This document shows, piece after piece, positions 1,706 to 64,000 of a stretch of DNA of 64,000 bases. The DNA is taken from the NCBI RefSeq assembly GCF_009831625.1, contig NZ_WUUS01000008.1, positions 62,001 through 126,000 on the forward strand, given 5' to 3'. How positions within the stretch are numbered: position 1 is the first letter of the stretch; every line of letters starts with the position of its first letter. Below the pieces are notes generated by a model. That model was not told the origin of the DNA, did not search any database, and saw only the letters and a list, made by a program, of their open reading frames with translations. The translations under genes were made by a program, and so were the position numbers. Origin of the DNA: Halobaculum saliterrae. Its GTDB lineage: Archaea > Halobacteriota > Halobacteria > Halobacteriales > Haloferacaceae.

Positions 1706-4537
1706 GTGAACGTTCGCGGTCCGCTCCTGGAGGTCGGCGAGGTCAGAGAGGTGAGCACGCGCTACGGCGAGCGCGACCTCGTGGAGTTGACGGTCCGGCC
1801 CGACGGCGGGGCCCGCGAGGGCGAGAGGAGCGAGCCCTCGACGCGGACGGGGAGCGGAGCGACCCGTGAGCACGCCGACCCCGTCACCGTCACCCTCTGG
1901 GGGAAGTGGACCCACACCGCGGAGCACGCCGAGGAGGGCATGGAACTGCTCGTCACCGACGCCGAGCGCGACGACTACGGCGACCGCGAGGGGTACACCA
2001 CCTCCTCGGAGTCGTACGTCGTGCTCGAACCGGACTTCCTCGTCGACGTGACCGACGTCCGGTCGTGGGTGCAGTGCCCGCGGATGTACTACCTGAACAA
2101 GCTCTCTGGGATCCCGCTGAACTACCCCGTCGTGAAGGGGACGGTCGTCCACGAGGTGTTCGGCGACCTCCTCAGGGGGGTGAATCTCGAGGAATCGATC
2201 GACGACCGCGTCGCGGAGGCCGGCCTCGAACTCGGGCTGCTCGGGATGGAGCGCGAGGAGGTCGCCGACGAGGTGCGGCGAAACGCCGCCGCGATCCAGG
2301 GATGGCTCAATCAGGGGACGCTCGCCACGGACGACGACACATCGGCGGGGGGCGAGAACGCGGCGGAGAGGGACGAGAGCGGGTCTGCGGACGCCGGCGA
2401 CGGCGCGAACGCCTCGCTCTCGGAGTGGGACGGCGGTCCCGACGAGTCGGAGTGGCGCTCGGAGTACACCCTCATCTCGCCGACCTTCGGCATCAAGGGT
2501 CGCGCCGACGCGCTGCGCCGCGGACAGCCCGTCGAACTGAAGACGGGCAAGAACACGAAGCGCGACCCGCGCTTTCAGGACAAGATCCAGGCCGCCTGCT
2601 ACGCCCTCCTCCTTCGCGAGCGCGGCGTCGACGTGGACACGGGAACGCTGCTGTACACGAAGAACACCGCACTCGACCGCGGAGAGGAGTCCGGCGACCT
2701 CTCGCCGGCCAAGGAGTTCTCGGTCGGGAAGGGCCTGCTGGAGTTCGTCGTCCGCCAGCGCAACGAGATCGCCGCCGCGGAGTTCGACGTGTCCGTCCCG
2801 ACGGGGTACGAGGCCGACGCGACCTGCGAGTACTGCTTCGAGCAGGACACGTGCATGGTCGTTTCGGGCCGCCTCGATCAGGAGTCGAAGGCCGGGCAGA
2901 TCGGCACGGCGCTTCCCGAGGAGGAGCGCGAGTACTTCGATCGGACCTACCGCGCCTTGGAGGAGGAGCGCCGCGAGACTCACGCCGAGTACCGAAAGCT
3001 GTGGGAACAAACCGCCGAGGAGCGCGCGGCCGACGACCGGGCGCTGATCGATCTGGTGCCCGTCTCCGAGGAGCCGATCGGCGACGGCCGCTGGCGACTC
3101 ACCGCCCGCAAGGAGACCGACGCCGTCTCGAAGCTCCGCGAGGGCGACGTGGCGCTGGCGTCCGACGGCGACCCGGCGTCGGGACACGCCGAGTTGGGGC
3201 GAATCCGGAAACTGGGTGACGAGGTCGTCGTCGAGACGGACGAACCCGTGGAGCTGCACCGCCTCGACGTGTACCCCTCCGAACTCTCCGTCTCACGCAT
3301 GCACACGGCGGTCCACGACTTCGTGCTCAAGGGCGACCCCGACCGGAAGGACGTGCTGTTCGGGCGGCGCGATCCGGCGTTCGCCGACCGCAGTTCCGCC
3401 GGGGGGCCGTACATCGACAACAACGACGCGCAGAACGCCGCCGTCGAGCGCGCGGTCGACGCGGAGGACTTCGCGCTCGTCCACGGGCCGCCGGGGACGG
3501 GCAAGACGTACACCATCGCCCGCATCGTCCGCGCGCTGGTGGAGCGGGGCGACCGGGTGCTCCTCTCGGCGTTCACGAACCGCGCGGTCGACAACGCCGT
3601 CGAGGCGCTGCGGGAGCAGGGGTTCGAGGACGTCCTGCGCGTCGGCACCGAGACGGGCGTCCGCGGCGACATGCAGGACCTCCGCCTCGTCACCCGGGGC
3701 GAGCCGAACGACCGCGCGGCGAAACTGAACTCGGCGCCGGTCGTCGCCGCGACCACCTCCTCCTGTGGCTCGCGGACGATGCGCGAACAGGAGTTCGACG
3801 TGGCGATCGTCGACGAGGCCTCCCAGCTCACCGAGCCGGGTACGCTCGCGGCGGTGAACCGCGCCGACCGGTTCGTCCTCGTGGGCGACCACGAGCAGCT
3901 CCCGCCGGTCGTGCGCGCCGAGAACCACCTCCGAGAGTCCCTGTTCCAGCGGCTCATCGAGGACCACCCCGACGCGGGCGTGATGCTCGACCGCCAGTAC
4001 CGCATGAGCCAGCGCATCCAGGCGTTCTCCTCGCGGGAGTTCTACGACGGAAAACTCCGTCCGGCGACGCCGGAAGTCGCCGGCCAGACGCTCGCGGATC
4101 TGGGCGTCGACACCGCAGACCTCCCGCCGGAACTGCGCGATTCCGTGTCGTTCGTCGATCCCAACGGGACCCGCGAGGGCAACGCGAACCCGGTGGAGGC
4201 CGACCGCGTCGCCGAGGTCGTCGACGCCTACGTCGCCGCCGGCGTCGACCCCGACGACATCGGCGTGATCGCGCCGTTCCGCGCGCAGGTCGCCGAGATC
4301 GGTCGTCGGACCGACGTGACCGTCGACACCGTCGACCGGTTCCAAGGGTCGAGCGAGGAGGTGATCGTCGTCTCGTTCGTCGCGACGGGCGACCTCTCCT
4401 CGCCCATCTTCGAGGACACTCGCCGCGTCAACGTCGCGTTGACCCGGGCGAAGAAGGCGCTGTGTCTCGTCGGCGACGCGGAGGCGCTCGCCACCGAGCC
4501 CTTCTACGAGCGGATGCTCGAGTGGGCTCGGCGGTAG
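1706..4537 (+). CDS. dna2: Dna2-like nuclease-helicase (Cas4-type nuclease plus SF1 helicase)
   Basis: A 943-residue fusion of a Cas4/RecB-type nuclease and a superfamily 1B helicase, expected to process flaps or ends in replication and repair. An N-terminal OB-like stretch (about 1-80) is followed by the nuclease, with four cysteines placed for an Fe-S cluster (C124, C374, C377, C383) and the catalytic segment VELKTGKN. A hydrophilic Asp/Glu/Ser insert near 210-245 is haloarchaea-like filler. Walker A GPPGTGKT starts at residue 594, Walker B VDEAS is near 701, and late helicase motifs include DRQYRMS and VDTVDRFQGSS. The GTG start follows a CGGTA spacer, and no better upstream start exists. 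It sits between a dioxygenase-like gene and membrane proteins, so context gives no partner. Confidence 0.92.
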   Translation: MNVRGPLLEVGEVREVSTRYGERDLVELTVRPDGGAREGERSEPSTRTGSGATREHADPVTVTLWGKWTHTAEHAEEGMELLVTDAERDDYGDREGYTTSSESYVVLEPDFLVDVTDVRSWVQCPRMYYLNKLSGIPLNYPVVKGTVVHEVFGDLLRGVNLEESIDDRVAEAGLELGLLGMEREEVADEVRRNAAAIQGWLNQGTLATDDDTSAGGENAAERDESGSADAGDGANASLSEWDGGPDESEWRSEYTLISPTFGIKGRADALRRGQPVELKTGKNTKRDPRFQDKIQAACYALLLRERGVDVDTGTLLYTKNTALDRGEESGDLSPAKEFSVGKGLLEFVVRQRNEIAAAEFDVSVPTGYEADATCEYCFEQDTCMVVSGRLDQESKAGQIGTALPEEEREYFDRTYRALEEERRETHAEYRKLWEQTAEERAADDRALIDLVPVSEEPIGDGRWRLTARKETDAVSKLREGDVALASDGDPASGHAELGRIRKLGDEVVVETDEPVELHRLDVYPSELSVSRMHTAVHDFVLKGDPDRKDVLFGRRDPAFADRSSAGGPYIDNNDAQNAAVERAVDAEDFALVHGPPGTGKTYTIARIVRALVERGDRVLLSAFTNRAVDNAVEALREQGFEDVLRVGTETGVRGDMQDLRLVTRGEPNDRAAKLNSAPVVAATTSSCGSRTMREQEFDVAIVDEASQLTEPGTLAAVNRADRFVLVGDHEQLPPVVRAENHLRESLFQRLIEDHPDAGVMLDRQYRMSQRIQAFSSREFYDGKLRPATPEVAGQTLADLGVDTADLPPELRDSVSFVDPNGTREGNANPVEADRVAEVVDAYVAAGVDPDDIGVIAPFRAQVAEIGRRTDVTVDTVDRFQGSSEEVIVVSFVATGDLSSPIFEDTRRVNVALTRAKKALCLVGDAEALATEPFYERMLEWARR

Positions 4538-4603
4538 CGTCCCGGGAGGGCGTTCGTCCGCGTGGGCTGTCGTCCGCCGGTCGTGTCCCGGACGCACGCC
4601 GCT

Positions 4604-6568
4604 TCAGCGGGCGTCGTCGCCGTCGCCGGTGTCGGCGTCGGTGCTGTCGTCGCGTTCGCCGGTGTCGGTCGTGCGTTCGTCCCGGTCGGCGCTCTCGCCG
4701 CGACGGTCCGATCCGTCCCCGGTGTCGCCGTCCCGATCGCCGTCGGAACCAGCTCCGTTCGTCGCGACGGGGTCGACCCCGCCAGTCGACTCATCGGTCC
4801 CGCTGTCGGTCGCGGAGGCGTCCTCGGCGGCGCTCGACGGCCCCTCCGACCTTCGGTGGCGACGTTCGCGCCGCGCGCGTCGCCGGGCCACGAGATCCCC
4901 GCGCAGAGCGTCGAGCAGTTGCTCGCGAACCCCGTCGGCGGCGTCGGCGTCCAGGTCGTGGGCCACCGCGTCGCCGCCGAGCAGTCCCGAGGAGGACGCG
5001 GAGTCGCCGACGACGGACGCCAGGCGCCGCCGCCGCTGGAAGACCGTCCGCGAGACGAACACCGTCTGTAGCCGGAAGTACGGCACCAGTCGGGTGTGGC
5101 GACGGAGCACGCCCGTCCGGGTGACGAACCCGTCGGAGGCGGTCGCGTGCCCGCGGTGTGTCCACGTCAGGTGTCCCGCGAGCGGCGCCAGCGCGACGCC
5201 GACAAGCGGCGCGAACGGGAGGAGCCGCGGCAGGTCGAACGCGAGCCTGTCGACGCCGACCGCGACGGCGGTCAGCGCGAGCGCCGCGATCGCGTAGCGC
5301 GCGACGTAGCGTCGACGGGCGCGGGTCGGCGGCCGTTCGACGGTGTCGACCCCGAACGCGTCGTCGGTGGGAGCCGTGTCCGTCCCGGCGTCCGCGCCCA
5401 ACTCCGCTCGGACGTCGTCGGCGAGCGCGACGACCCGCTCGCGGGTGTCGAGCGGGACCGCCGTCTCGACGCCGCCGCCGCCTCCGCCGCTCGAGCCGGG
5501 CGCGTAGCCGGCGGTGTCGACCGCCAGGCTGGCGTAGCCGAGGCGACGCATGGCGGCGTTCTCCGAGACGGTGAGCGTCTGCACCTTCGAGAGCGGGACC
5601 GTTCCGCTGTAGCGACCGAGCAGGCCGCGCTCGTATCTGAGTTCGTCGCCGACGCGCTCCAGCCGGAAGCCGTAGTAGCGGACGAACGTCAGCGCGGCGC
5701 TGACGACCCAGACGACCAGCAGGAACCCGAGGACGCCGAGCAGCCCCAGCGACACCAAGTCGCCCGGCCCCAGCGAGGGGACGTCCCCGGGCCCCACCTC
5801 GACGTCGATGATCCCGTAGCGCACGAGGAGCCGCCCGCCGTCGAACAGCAGGTCGTCGAAGAGGCTGGCGCCGACGAACGGCGCGATCACCGCGCCCGGC
5901 CGAAAGGACACCGCACACAGCGTTGCGAACCGTCGGCCAGTGAGTTCGTACAGCGTCTCCGACGCCGGTTCGGAGCGACGCGGCTCCGTCGTCGCCTCCG
6001 CGTCGCGGTCGGCGGCGACGCCGGCATCATCAGCACCCGCCGTACCGGTACCGGTTGCACTGGCACCGGTGGTGTCCGTGGTACCCTCAGCTTCGTCTCC
6101 CGGATCGCGTTCGTCCCGGTGGTCGCTCCGGCGACCGTGGCGACCCAGTTCCTCGCGGAGCCGGTCGGCTTCCTCGCGTCCGACGGCGTCGAGGGTCGCC
6201 TCCGTCGACCCCCCACCGGCCGTCTCGACGGTGACGGTCGAGAGCCCGAGCGCGCGCTGGAGGAGGCTCCGGCGCACGTCCACGTTCTGGACGCGGTGGA
6301 GCGGGATCTCCCGGTCCTGACGGGAGACGACGCCGGAGCGGACGACCAGCCGGTCCGGGAGCGTCTCGTACTCGAAGCGGTACCACCGCGCCAGCGCGAT
6401 ACCGCCCCCGAGGACGAACGCCGCGGGGATCGCCAGCGGCGCGATCGGGGCGGCGCCGTCGCCGCTCATCCCCAGAAACGCGGTGCTCGCGAACACCGCG
6501 AACAGCGCCAGTTGGCCGCCGGAGCGGAGCGCGCTCACGGCGGCCGAGGCGGGATGGAGTCTGGGCAT
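4604..6568 (-). CDS. YdbT-like membrane protein with three bPH2 domains
   Basis: A 654-residue integral membrane protein of the YdbT family. It has pairs of transmembrane segments each followed by a bacterial-PH2 (DUF304) module: the first carries the PLHRVQNVDVRR signature, the second PLSKVQTLTVSE, the third the weaker PYFRLQTVFVSR. In Bacillus, YdbS/YdbT affect resistance to antimicrobial peptides; the archaeal role is unknown. A charged Thr/Asp/Arg-rich linker and a roughly 45-residue Asp/Gly/Arg tail are low complexity. The ATG at 6568 shares its A with the TGA stop of the upstream ydbS-like gene, so the two are coupled. A longer in-frame start at 6994 would run through that gene and is rejected. 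Confidence 0.85.
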   Translation of the reverse strand: MPRLHPASAAVSALRSGGQLALFAVFASTAFLGMSGDGAAPIAPLAIPAAFVLGGGIALARWYRFEYETLPDRLVVRSGVVSRQDREIPLHRVQNVDVRRSLLQRALGLSTVTVETAGGGSTEATLDAVGREEADRLREELGRHGRRSDHRDERDPGDEAEGTTDTTGASATGTGTAGADDAGVAADRDAEATTEPRRSEPASETLYELTGRRFATLCAVSFRPGAVIAPFVGASLFDDLLFDGGRLLVRYGIIDVEVGPGDVPSLGPGDLVSLGLLGVLGFLLVVWVVSAALTFVRYYGFRLERVGDELRYERGLLGRYSGTVPLSKVQTLTVSENAAMRRLGYASLAVDTAGYAPGSSGGGGGGVETAVPLDTRERVVALADDVRAELGADAGTDTAPTDDAFGVDTVERPPTRARRRYVARYAIAALALTAVAVGVDRLAFDLPRLLPFAPLVGVALAPLAGHLTWTHRGHATASDGFVTRTGVLRRHTRLVPYFRLQTVFVSRTVFQRRRRLASVVGDSASSSGLLGGDAVAHDLDADAADGVREQLLDALRGDLVARRRARRERRHRRSEGPSSAAEDASATDSGTDESTGGVDPVATNGAGSDGDRDGDTGDGSDRRGESADRDERTTDTGERDDSTDADTGDGDDAR

Positions 6569-53737: not shown

Positions 53738-54841
53738 TCAGATGCCGGGGTCGGGTCGCTCCCCGAGTTCGAACGAGACGGTCGTCTCCGACCCGTCACG
53801 GAGCACGGTGAACTCCACGGCATCGCCGGGATCGGTCTCCAGGGCGAGGTAGTTCGAGAGGTCGGCCTGCACCTCCACGTCGGTGCCGCCGATCCCGACG
53901 ACCACGTCGCCGCCGGTGGGGACGCTGACGCCGTCGACGGTGGTTTCGCCGTCGGTCCCGCGGAGCGTCCCGGCGGCGGGCCCGTCCTCGAGCACCTCGA
54001 CGATGAGCACGCCGCCCACGTCGTCGATGTCGTACGCCTCCGCGATGACGGGTGTCACCTCGAGGAGACGAACGCCCATGTAGGAGTGTCGGTACTCGCC
54101 GTCCGCCGCGAGCGCGGGGACGACCTGCTTCGACAGCTCGGCGGAGACGCCGAACCCGAGGTTGTCGCCGCCGCCGCGGGCGGCGACCGCCGCGACGTCC
54201 CCGCCGAAGGTGACGACGGGACCGCCCGAGTTGCCGGGGTTGAGCGCGGCGTCGGTCTGTACGGAGTCGGCGACGGTGAAGTTGTTCGGCGCCGACAGCA
54301 CCCGGTCGATCCCGGAGATGACGCCGGTGGAGGCGGAGCCGCTGAAGCCGTACGGCGATCCGATCGCCATCACCGGGGTCCCGACCGGCGGCTCGGGGTC
54401 GGTGTCGACCCACGACAGCGGCGTCGCGAACTCGGGGCGGTCCTCGGCGCGCAACACAGCGAGGTCCGAGTAGGCGTCCGTGCCGACGATCTCGGCGTCT
54501 CGCCACGTGTTGCCCTGAAAGCGGAGCTTCACTTCGGTCGCGCCGGCGACGACGTGCTGGTTCGTGACGACGTAGCCGTCGCCCGCGACGAAGCCGGAGC
54601 CGCTGCCCTGCGGGCCGTTCGGGCCGTAGTTGAGGACGCCGACGACCGACTGGATGGTCGACCGGTACACCTCGGTCTCGGTCGCCGCGGCGTCGCCGCG
54701 GCTCCCGGCACCGGAGTCCGCCGTCCCGTTCGAGTCGCCCGCCTGCGGAGCGGCGTCCGAGGAGCCCACCTGCACGCAGCCTGCGGCGCCGACGGCGCCC
54801 GCGCTCGCGAGTCCCGCCAGAACGTCGCGTCGTGTTGGCAT
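53738..54841 (-). CDS. HtrA/DegP-type serine protease, Tat lipoprotein
   Basis: A 367-residue extracytoplasmic serine protease with quality-control character. The signal has twin arginines (R4-R5) and a lipobox ending in C22, so it is a Tat-exported lipoprotein anchored outside the membrane. The catalytic triad is readable: H96 (VTNQHVV), D126 (YSDLAVL), S205 (NPGNSGGP). A single PDZ domain follows (MGVRLLEVTPVIAEAYDIDDVGGVLIVEV). The ATG at 54841 (MPTRRDVLAG) is fixed by the signal; the open frame to 55156 is spurious. An Asp/Gly/Ala linker (29-55) spaces it from the membrane. Confidence 0.95.
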   Translation of the reverse strand: MPTRRDVLAGLASAGAVGAAGCVQVGSSDAAPQAGDSNGTADSGAGSRGDAAATETEVYRSTIQSVVGVLNYGPNGPQGSGSGFVAGDGYVVTNQHVVAGATEVKLRFQGNTWRDAEIVGTDAYSDLAVLRAEDRPEFATPLSWVDTDPEPPVGTPVMAIGSPYGFSGSASTGVISGIDRVLSAPNNFTVADSVQTDAALNPGNSGGPVVTFGGDVAAVAARGGGDNLGFGVSAELSKQVVPALAADGEYRHSYMGVRLLEVTPVIAEAYDIDDVGGVLIVEVLEDGPAAGTLRGTDGETTVDGVSVPTGGDVVVGIGGTDVEVQADLSNYLALETDPGDAVEFTVLRDGSETTVSFELGERPDPGI

Positions 54842-54962
54842 GAACCACGGTACGGCCCTGACCCGAATAACTCCGGCGCTCTCCGCACATGCGTCACGCG
54901 ATCCCGCCGGGTCCGTCGTCCGCTCCGGCAGGCATTTGCCCCGTCCGGCGGTACGGACGGGT

Positions 54963-55415
54963 ATGAGCCTCGACGCCGACACCCCGCCGACGCCGACCCT
55001 CTCGACGGTCGACCCGAGCCAGTACGACGACACGGAGGTCGCCGGCGACGAGTACCACCGCGAGGAGCTGGAGTCGTTCCTCCAGGAGGGCGCGTGGGAG
55101 GCGGCGTTCGATCGGTGGGCCGCGGACGCCGACATCGACGCCGACACGTGGCGCATCGCCGGCGAACTGGCGTTGTTCGAGCGGTTCGACTTCTTCTGGG
55201 ACGACTTCGCCGACCGCGTCGGCTACCACGCGCCCGGGCTCCCGGAGGACTGGAAGGAGCGCGACCTCCACCCGGATCTCCGGAGCTGGGAGCAGGTGTC
55301 GGCGATCAACGCCGCGTTGACCGAGTTCGGACAGGTCGTCTGCGAGGTGCTGAAGGAGGAGTACGTCGACTGGGAGAGCGAGTTCGAGGCCCCCGACGAC
55401 CTCCCCGACTTCTGA
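54963..55415 (+). CDS. Acidic protein of unknown function
   Basis: A 150-residue soluble acidic protein, likely helical from about residue 30 on: YHREELESFLQEGAWEAAFDRWAADA, TWRIAGELALFERFDFFWDDFADRVGYHAPGLPED, AINAALTEFGQVVCEVLKEEYVDWESEF. I do not recognise the family. The single Cys and abundance of Trp/Phe suggest a compact helical fold. The ATG at 54963 diverges from htrA across 121 bp. No motif links it to the protease. Confidence 0.7.
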   Translation: MSLDADTPPTPTLSTVDPSQYDDTEVAGDEYHREELESFLQEGAWEAAFDRWAADADIDADTWRIAGELALFERFDFFWDDFADRVGYHAPGLPEDWKERDLHPDLRSWEQVSAINAALTEFGQVVCEVLKEEYVDWESEFEAPDDLPDF

Positions 55416-59098: not shown

Positions 59099-59788
59099 TC
59101 AGTACGTCCAGAGTCGGCCGATCCGGTCGGCGACCTCCGCGTGCTCCGTCCGCAGCGCATCGGGGTCGCGTTCGCCGTCGACGTTGATCACGTGGACCTC
59201 GCCGCGCTCGGCGCCGTAGACGTCCTGGAAGTCGTAAACGACGCCGACCACGCTCGCGTCGTCGGGCACGTCGTCGCTGCCGACGAGGTGGTCGACCTGC
59301 CGGTCGACGTTGTACTCGACGAGCCGGTTCACGGCCTCGGTGCGGTCGAGCCCCTCGGGAAGCAGTCCGACGCCCGGTTCGAGGTGGGGAGCGAGCAGCC
59401 CGACGCAGTGGCGGATCCCCGGCGGCTCGCTGTCCGCGTCGATGTCGCCCGTGAGCACGCCGTACGTCGCCGTCACGGCGCCGCACCCGGTGTGGCCGAC
59501 GACGATGGCCGTGCGAGTGCCCGTGTGCGCCAGCGGGTACAACACGTCGCCGGAGACGACCTCGCCGGCGTCGGTGCGCTGGACGACGCGGTTGCCGATG
59601 TTGCTGCAGGTGAACAGTCGCCCGGGCGTGTCGTTGCCGAACAGCTGGTCCTGCAACACTCGCGAGTCCGAGCAGCAGACCGTCACCGCCTCGGGATGTT
59701 GTCCGTCCTGCACCTCGTCGAACCGACCGGCGAAGGCGTCGGCGTGTTCGGCGTTGTCGGCCAGCAACTCGACCACCGTCCGGTTCAT
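59099..59788 (-). CDS. Beta-class carbonic anhydrase
   Basis: A 229-residue beta-carbonic anhydrase interconverting CO2 and bicarbonate. Zinc ligands are C39 (CCSDSR, with D41/R43 as the Asp-Arg dyad), H99 and C102 (GHTGCGAV). SNIGNRVV is typical. The C-terminal half (VYDFQDVYGAERGEVHVINVDG) is longer than minimal enzymes. The ATG at 59788 lies about 27 nt after a strong TATA-like element (CATATTTGTA on the minus strand), supporting a leaderless transcript. It may supply bicarbonate to biotin-dependent carboxylases. Confidence 0.93.
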   Translation of the reverse strand: MNRTVVELLADNAEHADAFAGRFDEVQDGQHPEAVTVCCSDSRVLQDQLFGNDTPGRLFTCSNIGNRVVQRTDAGEVVSGDVLYPLAHTGTRTAIVVGHTGCGAVTATYGVLTGDIDADSEPPGIRHCVGLLAPHLEPGVGLLPEGLDRTEAVNRLVEYNVDRQVDHLVGSDDVPDDASVVGVVYDFQDVYGAERGEVHVINVDGERDPDALRTEHAEVADRIGRLWTY

Positions 59789-60414: not shown

Positions 60415-61374
60415 GTGATAACCGTCGACGGCCTGCGGAAGGTGTACGGCGACTTCGTCGCCGTACAGGGGAGTACCTTCGACGTGGAGCCGGGGGAGAT
60501 ATTCGGCGTCGTCGGCCCGAACGGGGCCGGGAAGACGACGACGCTCAAGACGCTCGCGGGGCTCATCGAGCCGACGGCCGGCGCAGTCCGGGTCGCCGGC
60601 GAGCCCGCGGGCGACCCTGAGACGCGCACCGCGTTGGGCTTTCTCCCGGAGGAATCGCCGCTGTACGAGGACATGACCGCGCGGAGCTACCTCCGCTTCT
60701 TCGCCGACCTGTACGACGTGCCGCGGGAGACCGCGAACCAGCGGATCGAGACCGCGCTCGACGACCTCGAACTTGAACACCGCGACCGACGGCTCGGGGA
60801 CGTCTCGAAGGGGATGAAGCGGAAGGTCGCGATCGCGCGATCGCTGGTCAACGACCCGGACGTGCTCATCTACGACGAGCCGGCCTCCGGGCTCGACCCG
60901 CTCACGACCAACTACGTGCTGGAGTACGTGCGCGAGCTCGCCGACGCCGGCAAGACCGTACTGTTCTCGGCGCACAACCTCTATCACGTCGAGTCGGTGT
61001 GCGACCGCGTCGTGATCATGAACGAGGGCGAGATCGTCGCACGCGGCACGGTCGAGGAGATCCGCGCGGAACACGGCGAGACGACCTATCGCGTGTTCAC
61101 GACGGTCCCCGTCGACGGCAGCGAGCCCGACGGCGACCGCCACGTGTCGACCGTCGACTCGATGGACGCCGTCGAGGGGATTCGCGAGGCGGCCGCCGAC
61201 GCCGGCGGCGAGGTCGTCGACATCCGCACCCGCGAGTCGACGCTGGAGGAGATATTCCTCGACGTGGCCGGCCAGCCGATGCCCGGGAGCCGGCGTGTCT
61301 CCCCCGGCGCGACCGACGGTGACCGGAGGCGCGAGCCGTCGGAGCCGCCCGAGCCGCCGGAGGCCGCGGAGTGA
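60415..61374 (+). CDS. ABC transporter ATP-binding protein
   Basis: A 319-residue ABC ATPase of the NatA/drug-export type that powers the two ABC-2 permeases encoded next. Walker [10 protein letters not shown] begins at residue 34, a Q-loop region [12 protein letters not shown] follows, the signature is [10 protein letters not shown], Walker B is [13 protein letters not shown] and the switch His is in [11 protein letters not shown]. The C-terminal 80 residues form a regulatory tail ending in Glu/Pro repeats ([12 protein letters not shown]). Start is GTG 60415 ([11 protein letters not shown]). Its TGA overlaps the next GTG as GTGA. The signature Ser-Lys-Gly variant (usually LSGGQ) is typical of this exporter group. 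Confidence 0.92.
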
Positions 61375-63197
61375 GCGTCTCTCCCCGGAAGCTGCTCCGG
61401 GTCGCACGCTGGGAGGTGTCCCGGGCGACCGGCAGCCTCGACCGGAGGACGGCGGTCCTCGGCGCCGTCGCGCTCCTGTTGACCCTCGGCGTCGCCGCGG
61501 GCGGCGTGCTCGCCGGCGGCGTCGCGCTCGACGAGGACATCTACGCGGTCGCGGTCAGCCCGGACAGCCCGTACCACGAGCCGGTCAGCGACTCGACCCC
61601 GCTGGAGGCGGTACCGGCGGGCGCGCCGAACGCCGACGTGTACGTCGACGACAGGGACCCGTCGGACCGGGAGGCGACCGTCTCGGTGGCGAACACGCGC
61701 AAGGGACAGGCCGCACTCGGCGCCTTCCGGTCGGCCGTCGAGCGGCACAACAACCGGCTGTTGCTCGCGGAGGAGAACCAGTCGGCCGCCTTCCCCGTCG
61801 GCGTCACCCTCAGCTACGTCGAGCGCGCGACCCAGCGGGTCGGCGCCAACGACGGGACGGCAGGGGCGGGCGGAGACGACGCGACCGGCGACGACGGAAC
61901 CGGTGACGCCGGCGGGGGCGACGCGGGCGAGGCGGGCGACGGAGCGGACGGGTCGGGGACCGGTGACGGTGGCGCCGGGAGCGGGCTCGGCGTCCCGGAC
62001 CTCGGCGGCGCGGCTGGGTCGCTGTTCGGCGGCCAGCCGACCGGGTCGCCGGCGGAGATATCGCCGCCGTTCCCGTTCTCCTCGCTCGTGCTCGCGTTCG
62101 CGTTTCTCGTGCCGATGAACTTCGTCATCCAGGCGTACGGGTCGACGATCCTCAACGAGCGGATCAACCGACGGGGCGAGCTGCTGCTCGTCGCGCCGCT
62201 GTCGCGGACCGACATCGTCGCGGGCAAGACGCTCCCGTACGCCGGGATCGCGCTCGCGGCGACGACGATCATCGCCGTCGCCGTCGGGGGCGGGCCCCTC
62301 TCGGTGGCGGCGGTGTTCCCGATCGCGCTCGTGTTCCTCGCGGCAACGTTCGTCGGCGCGATGTTCGCGCGGTCGTTCAAGGAGCTCACCTTCGTCACGG
62401 TCACGGTCTCGGTGGCGCTGACGACGTACGCGTTCGTTCCCGCGATCTTCGCGACCGTGACGCCCGTCGCGCTCATCTCGCCGCTCACGCTCGTCGTCCG
62501 CGACCTGCAGGGCGAGGCGGTGTCGATCGCGGAGTACCTGTTCTCGACGGGGCCGTTCTACCTCGTCGCGGGCACCCTGTTCGCCATGGGGGTCGGCGTC
62601 TACCGCGAGGAGGACATGTTCACCCAGCGGGCGGTGCCGCTGAAGTTCCTCGACGCGCTCGCGGTGCACCTGCACCGCCCCCGCGACGTGGCGCTGCTTG
62701 CGGCGCTGTCGATCCCGTTCGTGTTCGTCGCCGAGCTGCTCGGGATCGCCGTGTTGTTCGCGCTCCCGGAGGGCGCCGCGATCGTCGCGCTGCTCGTCGT
62801 CGTCGCGGTCGTCGAGGAGGTCGCGAAGGGCGTCGGCGTGTACGCCGGGTTCCACCAGTCGCGCTTCGAGCGCGACCTCCCCACGGCGCTGAAACTGGGC
62901 GCGCTGTCGGGCGCGGGCTTCTTCGTCGCGGAGAAGGCGACCGCCGTCGTACAGGTCGTCGGGCTCGGCTCGCTCCCGTTGGGTCAGGCAGCCTTCGGAA
63001 CTTCGGGCGTCGGGTCCGGCCTGGGCCCGGCCGCCGGCCTCGCGCTGTTGGCGCTCCCGCTCGCGCTCCACGTCGTCACGGCGGCGATCGGCGCCGTCGG
63101 CGCGACGCGAGGGCGGCGCGCGTGGGCCGGGACCCTGCTCGTCGCGATGGCGATCCACTTCGGCTACGACCTCACGGTGGTGAGCACCCTTGGATAG
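61371..63197 (+). CDS. ABC-2 permease fused to a PrsW-type intramembrane protease
   Basis: A 608-residue fusion. Residues about 1-430 form an ABC-2 permease: helix 1 near 26-50, an extracytoplasmic region including a Gly/Ala/Asp-rich linker (about 155-210), then helices around SSLVLAFAFLVPMNFVIQAYG and the conserved NERINRRGELLLVAPLSRTDIVAGK. Residues about 440-608 match the PrsW glutamic-type intramembrane protease: E482-E483-x2-K486 (VVEEVAK), F517-x3-E521 (GFFVAEKA) and H596-x3-D600 (AIHFGYD), all three motifs intact. It starts at GTG 61371, overlapping the ATPase gene. The fusion implies that export and membrane proteolysis act on one substrate or regulate each other, which is inference. 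Confidence 0.88.
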   Translation: MSVSPRKLLRVARWEVSRATGSLDRRTAVLGAVALLLTLGVAAGGVLAGGVALDEDIYAVAVSPDSPYHEPVSDSTPLEAVPAGAPNADVYVDDRDPSDREATVSVANTRKGQAALGAFRSAVERHNNRLLLAEENQSAAFPVGVTLSYVERATQRVGANDGTAGAGGDDATGDDGTGDAGGGDAGEAGDGADGSGTGDGGAGSGLGVPDLGGAAGSLFGGQPTGSPAEISPPFPFSSLVLAFAFLVPMNFVIQAYGSTILNERINRRGELLLVAPLSRTDIVAGKTLPYAGIALAATTIIAVAVGGGPLSVAAVFPIALVFLAATFVGAMFARSFKELTFVTVTVSVALTTYAFVPAIFATVTPVALISPLTLVVRDLQGEAVSIAEYLFSTGPFYLVAGTLFAMGVGVYREEDMFTQRAVPLKFLDALAVHLHRPRDVALLAALSIPFVFVAELLGIAVLFALPEGAAIVALLVVVAVVEEVAKGVGVYAGFHQSRFERDLPTALKLGALSGAGFFVAEKATAVVQVVGLGSLPLGQAAFGTSGVGSGLGPAAGLALLALPLALHVVTAAIGAVGATRGRRAWAGTLLVAMAIHFGYDLTVVSTLG

Positions 63198-64000
63198 CGA
63201 TCGCGGGGACGACGCGGGGGACGCTCCCCGGGACGCCCCGAACCCGATCCCGGGAACCGTCGCCGCGGGCGACCGTGCGAACCGGGACCCGCGCTGGACG
63301 ATCGCGAAGCGGGAGCTGGCGTCGTTGCGCTCGGAGAAGACGATCCTGCTGGCGCTGCTGATCCAACTGTTCGTGGCGGCGTTCTCGTCGTTCCTCGTGG
63401 TCGGGCTCGTCTCGCTGTACGATCCCGGCGCCGCGGCGGGCTACTCGGTCGAGACGGCCGTCGCCGGCGACGACGCCGGCGATCTCGCGGCCGCGGTCGG
63501 GGGAACCGACGGGATGGAGGCCCGGCGGTACCCGACCCGGGAAGCCGCCGTCGACGCCTTCTCCGAGGGCCGGGTCGACGCGGCGATGCTGTCGACGGCG
63601 ACCGAGCGCGGCACCGTGGAGGTCCGCGTGCTCGTTCCCGACGGCAACGTCGGGACGACGCTGGTCGTCGTCCGCGCCCGCGAGGCGCTGCGGGCGTTCG
63701 AGCGACTGGAGCGCGACCAGCGCTCCGCCTCGCTGACCGCGGAGACGCTTGAACTGCCGCCGCGGGCCGGCTCGTCGCCGTACTTCGGCTTCACCTACAC
63801 CGTGCTCGTCCCGCTGCTGTTGTTCCTCCCGGTGTTCATCGCCGGCTCGGTGACGGTCGACTCGCTCACCGAGGAACTGGAGCGCGGGACGCTGGAACTG
63901 CTCCGGGTCGCCCCCGTCACGATGACAGACATCGTCGAGGGGAAGCTGCTGGCGGCCGCCGGCCTCGCCCCGATCCAGGCGGCGCTGTGGCTCGCGCTGC
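63190..64000 (+). CDS. ABC-2 permease, 3' end cut by window edge
   Basis: The second permease of the export system, about 270 residues visible. A hydrophilic N-terminus precedes WTIAKRELASLRSEKTILLALLIQLFVAAFSSFLVVG (helix 1), a large extracytoplasmic domain, then YTVLVPLLLFLPVFIAGSVTVDSLTEELERGTLELLRVAPVTMTDIVEGKLL, the ABC-2 signature with the coupling segment, matching the permease half of the preceding protein. No in-frame ATG or GTG exists near the start; TTG 63190, overlapping the upstream stop by eight bases, is the best start. The remaining helices lie beyond the window. Confidence 0.85.
   Translation, partial: MDSDRGDDAGDAPRDAPNPIPGTVAAGDRANRDPRWTIAKRELASLRSEKTILLALLIQLFVAAFSSFLVVGLVSLYDPGAAAGYSVETAVAGDDAGDLAAAVGGTDGMEARRYPTREAAVDAFSEGRVDAAMLSTATERGTVEVRVLVPDGNVGTTLVVVRAREALRAFERLERDQRSASLTAETLELPPRAGSSPYFGFTYTVLVPLLLFLPVFIAGSVTVDSLTEELERGTLELLRVAPVTMTDIVEGKLLAAAGLAPIQAALWLAL

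Follow-up and report, generated by a model that had tools for sequence, protein, structure and literature searches.

The window analysed here, a stretch of 64,000 nucleotides from Halobaculum saliterrae, ends in three overlapping genes on the forward strand. The first encodes an ABC ATPase of 319 residues (60415–61374, +), which matches PF00005 with 107 bits and carries a Walker A motif (GPNGAGKT), a signature-like VSKGM and a Walker B motif (LIYDEP); its nearest NCBIfam model is DrrA (239 bits, under the DrrA cut-off). The ATPase stop codon overlaps by 4 nt the start of a 608-residue protein (61371–63197, +), in which an ABC-2 permease is followed by a PrsW-family intramembrane protease domain. 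Pfam matches cover both halves, which lie in a single uninterrupted frame of 608 codons with a GTG start. The stop of this fusion gene overlaps in turn by 8 nt the TTG start of a second ABC-2 permease of 388 residues (63190–64000, +, running past the window end; L031:5191-6357; PF12698, 54 bits). An exporter context is supported by the ATPase directly upstream and the second permease directly downstream of the fusion. The fusion had been proposed in an earlier note on this DNA, with whose frame, coordinates and residue numbers our reading agrees, including the NERINRRGELLLVAPLSRTDI segment at residues 262–282 and the motifs EEVAK, FFVAE and HFGYD.

Scans of the intact 608-residue chain against Pfam and NCBIfam reported no PrsW domain, which becomes visible once the C-terminal part is scanned separately. 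Residues 441–608 alone match PF13367 (PrsW-protease) with 31.4 bits (E-value 1.7e-7, cut-off 23.5), residues 420–608 match it with 31.6 bits, again above 23.5, and a whole-genome PF13367 search finds the fusion's C-terminal part with 31.7 bits, also above the cut-off; the PrsW-type identity that the earlier note had assigned to this part is thus borne out by the profile. At E ≤ 0.01, 19 of 34 fusion-family members are matched by the same model. The ABC half scanned alone passes the PF12679 cut-off of 27.2 with 29.7 bits, and scores 26.6 bits against PF12698, under the cut-off of 31.6. Phmmer and profile searches against solved structures returned no useful relative. The only annotated record that we found for the protein carries the name "ABC transporter permease subunit". 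Because the intact-chain scan is silent and the annotation names a permease only, the protease domain is easily overlooked.

Two further genes in the window were identified by eye. Upstream of the module, a gene on the reverse strand (59099–59788, −) resembles a β-type carbonic anhydrase and neighbours the module in close relatives only. At 53738–55156 (−) a serine protease of the trypsin-like (HtrA/DegP-like) type is encoded, which seems to have a signal or lipobox region; its true start probably lies downstream of the listed one.

Predicted architecture of the fusion

AlphaFold2 modelled the whole chain with a mean pLDDT of 77, the membrane parts being confident and low values falling mainly in the loop 140–233 and in the short loops 47–53 and 541–549; residues 420–608 modelled alone have a mean pLDDT of 89. 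The ABC-2 (type V) permease half (residues 1–411; 61371–62603, +), assigned from PF12679, the predicted helices and weak type V fold neighbours, comprises TM1 (residues 25–47), a large extracellular part and TM2–TM6 (residues 236–410). The Gly/Asp-rich section of the extracellular loop (residues 140–233; 61788–62069, +) is predicted to be disordered, with pLDDT values below 50 nearly throughout, and differs in length among members. The NERINRRGELLLVAPLSRTDI segment (62154–62216, +) is placed in the cytosolic loop after TM2 and contains eight residues that are invariant in 34 Halobacteria (E263, R264, R268, G269, E270, L273, V274 and P276); this loop is expected to contact the ATPase.

In the PrsW-family domain (residues 437–608; 62679–63194, +; 31.6 bits with PF13367), helices are predicted at residues 437–462, 467–495 (containing EExxK), 503–532 (FxxxEK), 553–578 (H567) and 582–607 (H596). 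Basic residues cluster in the loops 496–502 and 579–583, and nearly none are found in 533–552. The helix layout and topology of the fusion are supported by the model, and helix positions taken together with the charge pattern would locate the junction between the halves and both basic loops on the cytosolic side, with the active-site residues in the middle of the membrane. When the full model was submitted to Foldseek, type V ABC transporters were returned as neighbours of the ABC half, NosY and members of the ABCG, ABCA and ABCH groups among them. As these scores were weak and the protease half was missed, the protease domain was modelled and searched separately; its best PDB match is the γ-secretase subunit APH-1B (probability 0.54, E-value 1.7), a weak one. 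The fold matches of both halves agree with the sequence assignment, short of proving it.

The junction itself (residues 411–436, YREEDMFTQ...K..DA; 62601–62678, +) is conserved and near indel-free: residues 404–449 show zero length change in 32 of 34 Halobacteria, Y411, R412, E413, E414 and D415 are invariant in all 34, and E414 reaches 98% phylum-wide. This bears on the idea, raised in the earlier note as an exporter set by self-proteolysis, that the PrsW domain might cut its own chain, or the partner permease, and thereby switch or mature the exporter, in line with the autoproteolysis that has been proposed for the PrsW domains of polymorphic toxins (PMC3482391). In Halobacteria the junction ranks among the most conserved, indel-free stretches, quite unlike a variable linker made for cleavage, and we regard self-processing as improbable.

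Conservation of the putative active site

Motif 1, EExxK (EEVAK, residues 482–486; 62814–62828, +), lies inside helix 467–495. Motif 2, FxxxEK, consists of FFVAE and K522 (residues 517–522; 62919–62936, +), motif 3, which in PrsW proteases is a conserved histidine of the fifth transmembrane helix, is H567 (63069–63071, +) and motif 4 is HxxxD (HFGYD, residues 596–600; 63156–63170, +), which reads HxxxN in most relatives. We aligned 44 family sequences, whose members are 23–69% identical to the window protein. The alignment contains 21 invariant columns, 8 of which fall within the 172-residue protease domain (E482, E483, K486, E521, K522, P563, H567 and H596), and F517 is 98% conserved. Among 103 Halobacteria sequences E482, E483, K486, F517, E521, K522, H567 and H596 are conserved to 100%; at position 600, 91 of them have N and 12 have D, the window protein belonging to the D minority. 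The catalytic motifs listed in the earlier note were correctly positioned and the active site is intact as it had claimed, but its HxxxD is HxxxN in 91 of the 103 sequences, and H567 and K522 had been missed. Five of its seven motif positions are among the eight invariant columns of the C-terminal domain (hypergeometric p about 1e-6, indicative only, since the sequences are related).

Overall divergence is greater in the protease half than in the ABC half (mean pairwise distances of 0.65 versus 0.58), and the fixation of seven putative catalytic residues against this faster divergence speaks for selection on catalysis. Across the family, the distances measured in one half correlate with those in the other (rho 0.74; 0 of 2000 permutations), and therefore both halves evolve as one unit. 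These patterns also bear on a non-proteolytic reading, in which the PrsW-like domain would be a scaffold structurally needed by the exporter, much as APH-1 is in γ-secretase. APH-1, the best if weak fold neighbour, belongs to the same superfamily (PMC6588880), and extra membrane helices could well stabilize a permease. The motif residues, the EE pair included, are invariant phylum-wide, however, a constraint beyond what a scaffold should require, and we give this reading very little weight.

Very divergent members of only 520–524 codons occur in one family of small genomes (L155, L157 and L158, from G461, G394 and G412); all of the invariant protease residues are kept in them.

A conserved three-gene module in Halobacteriota

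At E ≤ 0.001 the fusion finds matches in 291 of 391 Halobacteria genomes. Six of these matches are weak and, in a profile search, turn out to be isolated PrsW-like stretches or disappear; a seventh, in a genome of the same genus (G184), is a remnant. The Halobacteria survey suggested in the earlier note thus puts the fusion in about 284 of the 391 genomes, with flanking conservation confined to the trio; about one genome in four lacks the module. Several Haloferax species carry it. Across 393 genomes of the phylum, 202 match the family profile at E ≤ 1e-8, many families outside Halobacteria included, and 34 of the phylum-wide matches were read as complete genes, each of which is a single frame, with lengths of 520–716 codons. 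Of the distinct family sequences examined, all have a continuous frame but that of the draft genome G417, whose parts are spread over two overlapping frames. More than 100 distinct sequences of the family share this open frame, which excludes both a frameshift between the halves, one of the findings that the earlier note had said would undo its proposal, and an assembly artefact. The fusion is real, conserved and under-annotated. Outside Halobacteriota the search covered plasmid and phage collections, with zero matches among the phages and a single Haladaptatus plasmid among the plasmids.

We then compared the neighbourhoods of 80 named haloarchaeal loci from many genera and of 20 methanogen-side loci. 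The order ATPase–fusion–second permease is kept in nearly all of the haloarchaeal loci (second permease in 79/80, ATPase in 77/80), those lacking part of the trio being two short contigs (L040 and L101) and one exception (L060). In most loci of methanogens and relatives (L165–L184) the ATPase gene is divergent beside the fusion–second permease pair. The trio has outlived this change of layout, as it is still adjacent in methanogens despite the divergent ATPase, compared with the single-strand operon of haloarchaea. At E ≤ 1e-20 the second permease has matches in 286 of the 391 Halobacteria, all inside the fusion-positive list, and the genome lists of fusion and second permease, compared by reading, agree once weak matches are set aside. 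The remnant in G184 (L193, G184:C2:68000-79000, around 4201–4918) consists of residues 1–43 of the ATPase, 358–436 of the fusion and 316–388 of the second permease; the module has collapsed through internal deletions beside intact flanking genes. Since only fragments of all three genes are retained there, the trio was lost as a block.

The exception L060 (5989–7923), from Halorussus salinisoli, is an orphan extra copy of the fusion that has neither ATPase nor second permease and has an intact active site. Its surroundings include repeat-containing proteins and a gene that, by eye, looks like an IS605-type transposase.

Beyond the trio, no gene is conserved adjacent on both sides of the phylum in the 80 haloarchaeal and 20 methanogen-side loci. 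Nor did these loci contain linked precursor peptide, immunity or modification genes, in a clustering of ORFs of at least 90 residues that a very small peptide gene could escape. The earlier note had placed the fusion in a peptide-export locus of the bacteriocin type. Its recognition of an ABC-2 permease/PrsW fusion with a conserved active site in an exporter context stands, but this part of its interpretation does not: only the trio is conserved, a precursor gene was not seen travelling alongside, and we reject a bacteriocin locus for lack of linked genes in the 80 and 20 loci at this ORF size. A housekeeping role accords better with the wide distribution than a bacteriocin role does, and any housekeeping role must be dispensable, because the module is missing from a sizeable share of Halobacteria.

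One such role would be membrane quality control: membrane proteins or lipoproteins that are damaged or stalled would be drawn by the ATPase-driven permease towards the protease and degraded there instead of being exported. It would suit a wide, mostly single-copy distribution and the absence of a cargo gene, and sits less well with the genomes, about one in four, that manage without the module; moreover, no ABC-2 exporter is known to feed a protease. We consider quality control distinctly unlikely.

The neighbourhoods bear equally on a signalling function. The founding member of the PrsW family acts as a site-1 protease in signalling (PMC4602095; PMC3482391), the Bacillus subtilis enzyme acting on RsiW in regulated intramembrane proteolysis, and other PrsW domains are fused to PilZ, cyclic-nucleotide-binding and FHA sensing domains (PMC3482391). 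By the same logic the ABC part might sense membrane stress, a drug or a peptide, and, through a conserved junction able to pass on a conformational change, let the PrsW domain cut a separate membrane-bound regulator or effector. We found no conserved regulator or membrane-anchored target gene nearby in the 80 and 20 loci, and two full permease subunits with a canonical ATPase exceed what a sensor needs, so that a transport-coupled sensor appears unlikely, if less so than quality control.

Proposed function and related systems

We consider the cutting and export of a substrate, also suggested in the earlier note, to be the most likely function of the fusion module. Specifically, we propose, with somewhat less than even confidence, that the module forms a heterodimeric exporter into which a glutamic intramembrane protease is integrated, membrane-embedded peptides being cut by the protease and the product expelled. 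The exporter would contain the ATPase in two copies and both ABC-2 permeases as a heterodimer. The permease half of the fusion would end in the cytosol, from where the protease half would re-enter the membrane, so that the protease site (E482/E483/K486, E521, H567, H596) would come to lie mid-membrane, beside the transport path. There it could cut a peptide or segment embedded in the membrane, for example the remains of a signal peptide or a small membrane protein, whose cleavage product the two permeases, driven by ATP, would extract or expel. Overall, the module would work like bacterial Eep/RasP with EcsAB, yet in one chain and with a glutamic protease. The fusion, its invariant active site, the conserved trio and the joint divergence of the halves are observed; we infer the proteolytic activity, the assembly into one complex, the direction of transport, the kind of substrate and the coupling of cutting to transport.

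In favour of cutting and export we count the invariant residues, the correlated halves, the near indel-free junction, the conserved trio and its joint decay, the genome distribution common to fusion and second permease, the charge pattern, the AlphaFold2 models, which are confident in the membrane parts, and the analogues discussed below. Against it stand the absence of a linked substrate gene, the weak fold match of the C-terminal domain (APH-1B) and the dispensability of the module; in addition, the invariant residues would be equally expected if the protease only cut a regulator in response to the state of the transporter. Because a cargo gene is absent and the distribution is broad, general substrates such as signal-peptide remnants seem more plausible than a bacteriocin. 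A wider version of the proposal, that the fusion acts across Halobacteriota as a single-chain cut-and-export machine clearing or releasing signal-peptide remnants, lipoprotein leaders or small membrane proteins, and is an independently evolved covalent counterpart of Eep/RasP with EcsAB, we put forward as a rather doubtful possibility.

One of the two strongest functional parallels comes from Firmicutes, where the intramembrane protease Eep/RasP and the ABC exporter EcsAB jointly cut and export membrane-derived peptides; in Staphylococcus aureus both Eep and EcsAB are required to cut and export lipoprotein-leader peptides (PMC7157817). In contrast to the fusion, these are separate proteins and the protease is an RseP-type site-2 zinc metalloprotease of another clan, and we do not claim homology. 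In PCAT exporters, the cysteine protease at the N-terminus lies in the cytosol, and the ABC exporter has another fold. With their C39 peptidase domain these peptidase-containing exporters (named in PMC13252029) resemble the fusion in joining protease and ABC exporter in one chain. In TMcin biosynthesis, the second of the strongest parallels, a transmembrane peptide is cut in the membrane by TmcP and then extracted by the type V ABC transporter TmcBC (PMC13252029), but here the proteins are separate, the protease belongs to the S2P clan and a dedicated precursor gene cluster is present. DrrAB/NosFY-type (type V, ABC-2) exporters share with the module a separate ATPase gene, for which DrrA is the best match, and NosY is among the weak fold neighbours; the module differs in having two different permease subunits, one of them with a protease domain.

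An ABC-2 permease fused to a protease of the CPBP/PrsW/APH-1 superfamily has a precedent in NCBIfam, whose model NF041647 (ABC_perm_CPBP, 636 positions) describes an N-terminal ABC-2 permease followed by a C-terminal glutamic intramembrane protease of this superfamily, at a length similar to that of the present fusion. Its protease is of the CPBP type (EExxxR), whereas that of the fusion is of the PrsW type (EExxK). Membership of the fusion in NF041647 was rejected: the fusion is not listed at E ≤ 1 and its halves are not listed at E ≤ 10, the model cut-off being 435 bits, and this cut-off is reached in none of 20 relatives' genomes. The second permease of the module weakly matches the ABC half of the model (9e-9). 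Judged by these comparisons, the fusion family lies outside the NF041647 model and draws on the PrsW branch. In PMC3482391 the partners of fused PrsW domains are toxins, PilZ, cNMP, FHA, Zn-ribbon and DUF2324 domains, with no ABC permease among them, and our literature searches, which had partial coverage with subscription papers outside their reach, found no description of an ABC-permease/PrsW fusion.

The targets of archaeal intramembrane proteases are largely unknown (PMC9263693), and the present system would assign a function to one of them. How and why ABC exporters cooperate with intramembrane proteases, as EcsAB does with Eep/RasP, is difficult to work out on separate proteins; since exporter and protease are joined here in one chain with an invariant active site, their coupling could be tested by point mutants of one gene in tractable haloarchaea. 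The PrsW-like protein HVO_0408 of Haloferax volcanii, whose function a review lists as unknown (PMC9263693), could be of the fusion or of the stand-alone type. A canonical stand-alone PrsW of 338 residues that has no ABC half is encoded in the Halobaculum genome as well (G000:C9:94899-95468; L032:1351-2367, −). It aligns with the fused domain in EExxK, FxxxE, the motif 3 histidine and the final HxxxN/D, and differs from it in profile score (157 versus 31 bits) and in FxxxEN as opposed to FxxxEK; its last motif, HATYN, has the N that most relatives of the window protein carry. The FxxxEK of the family, set against the FxxxEN of the genome's canonical PrsW, suggests that the fusion family forms a distinct PrsW subfamily.
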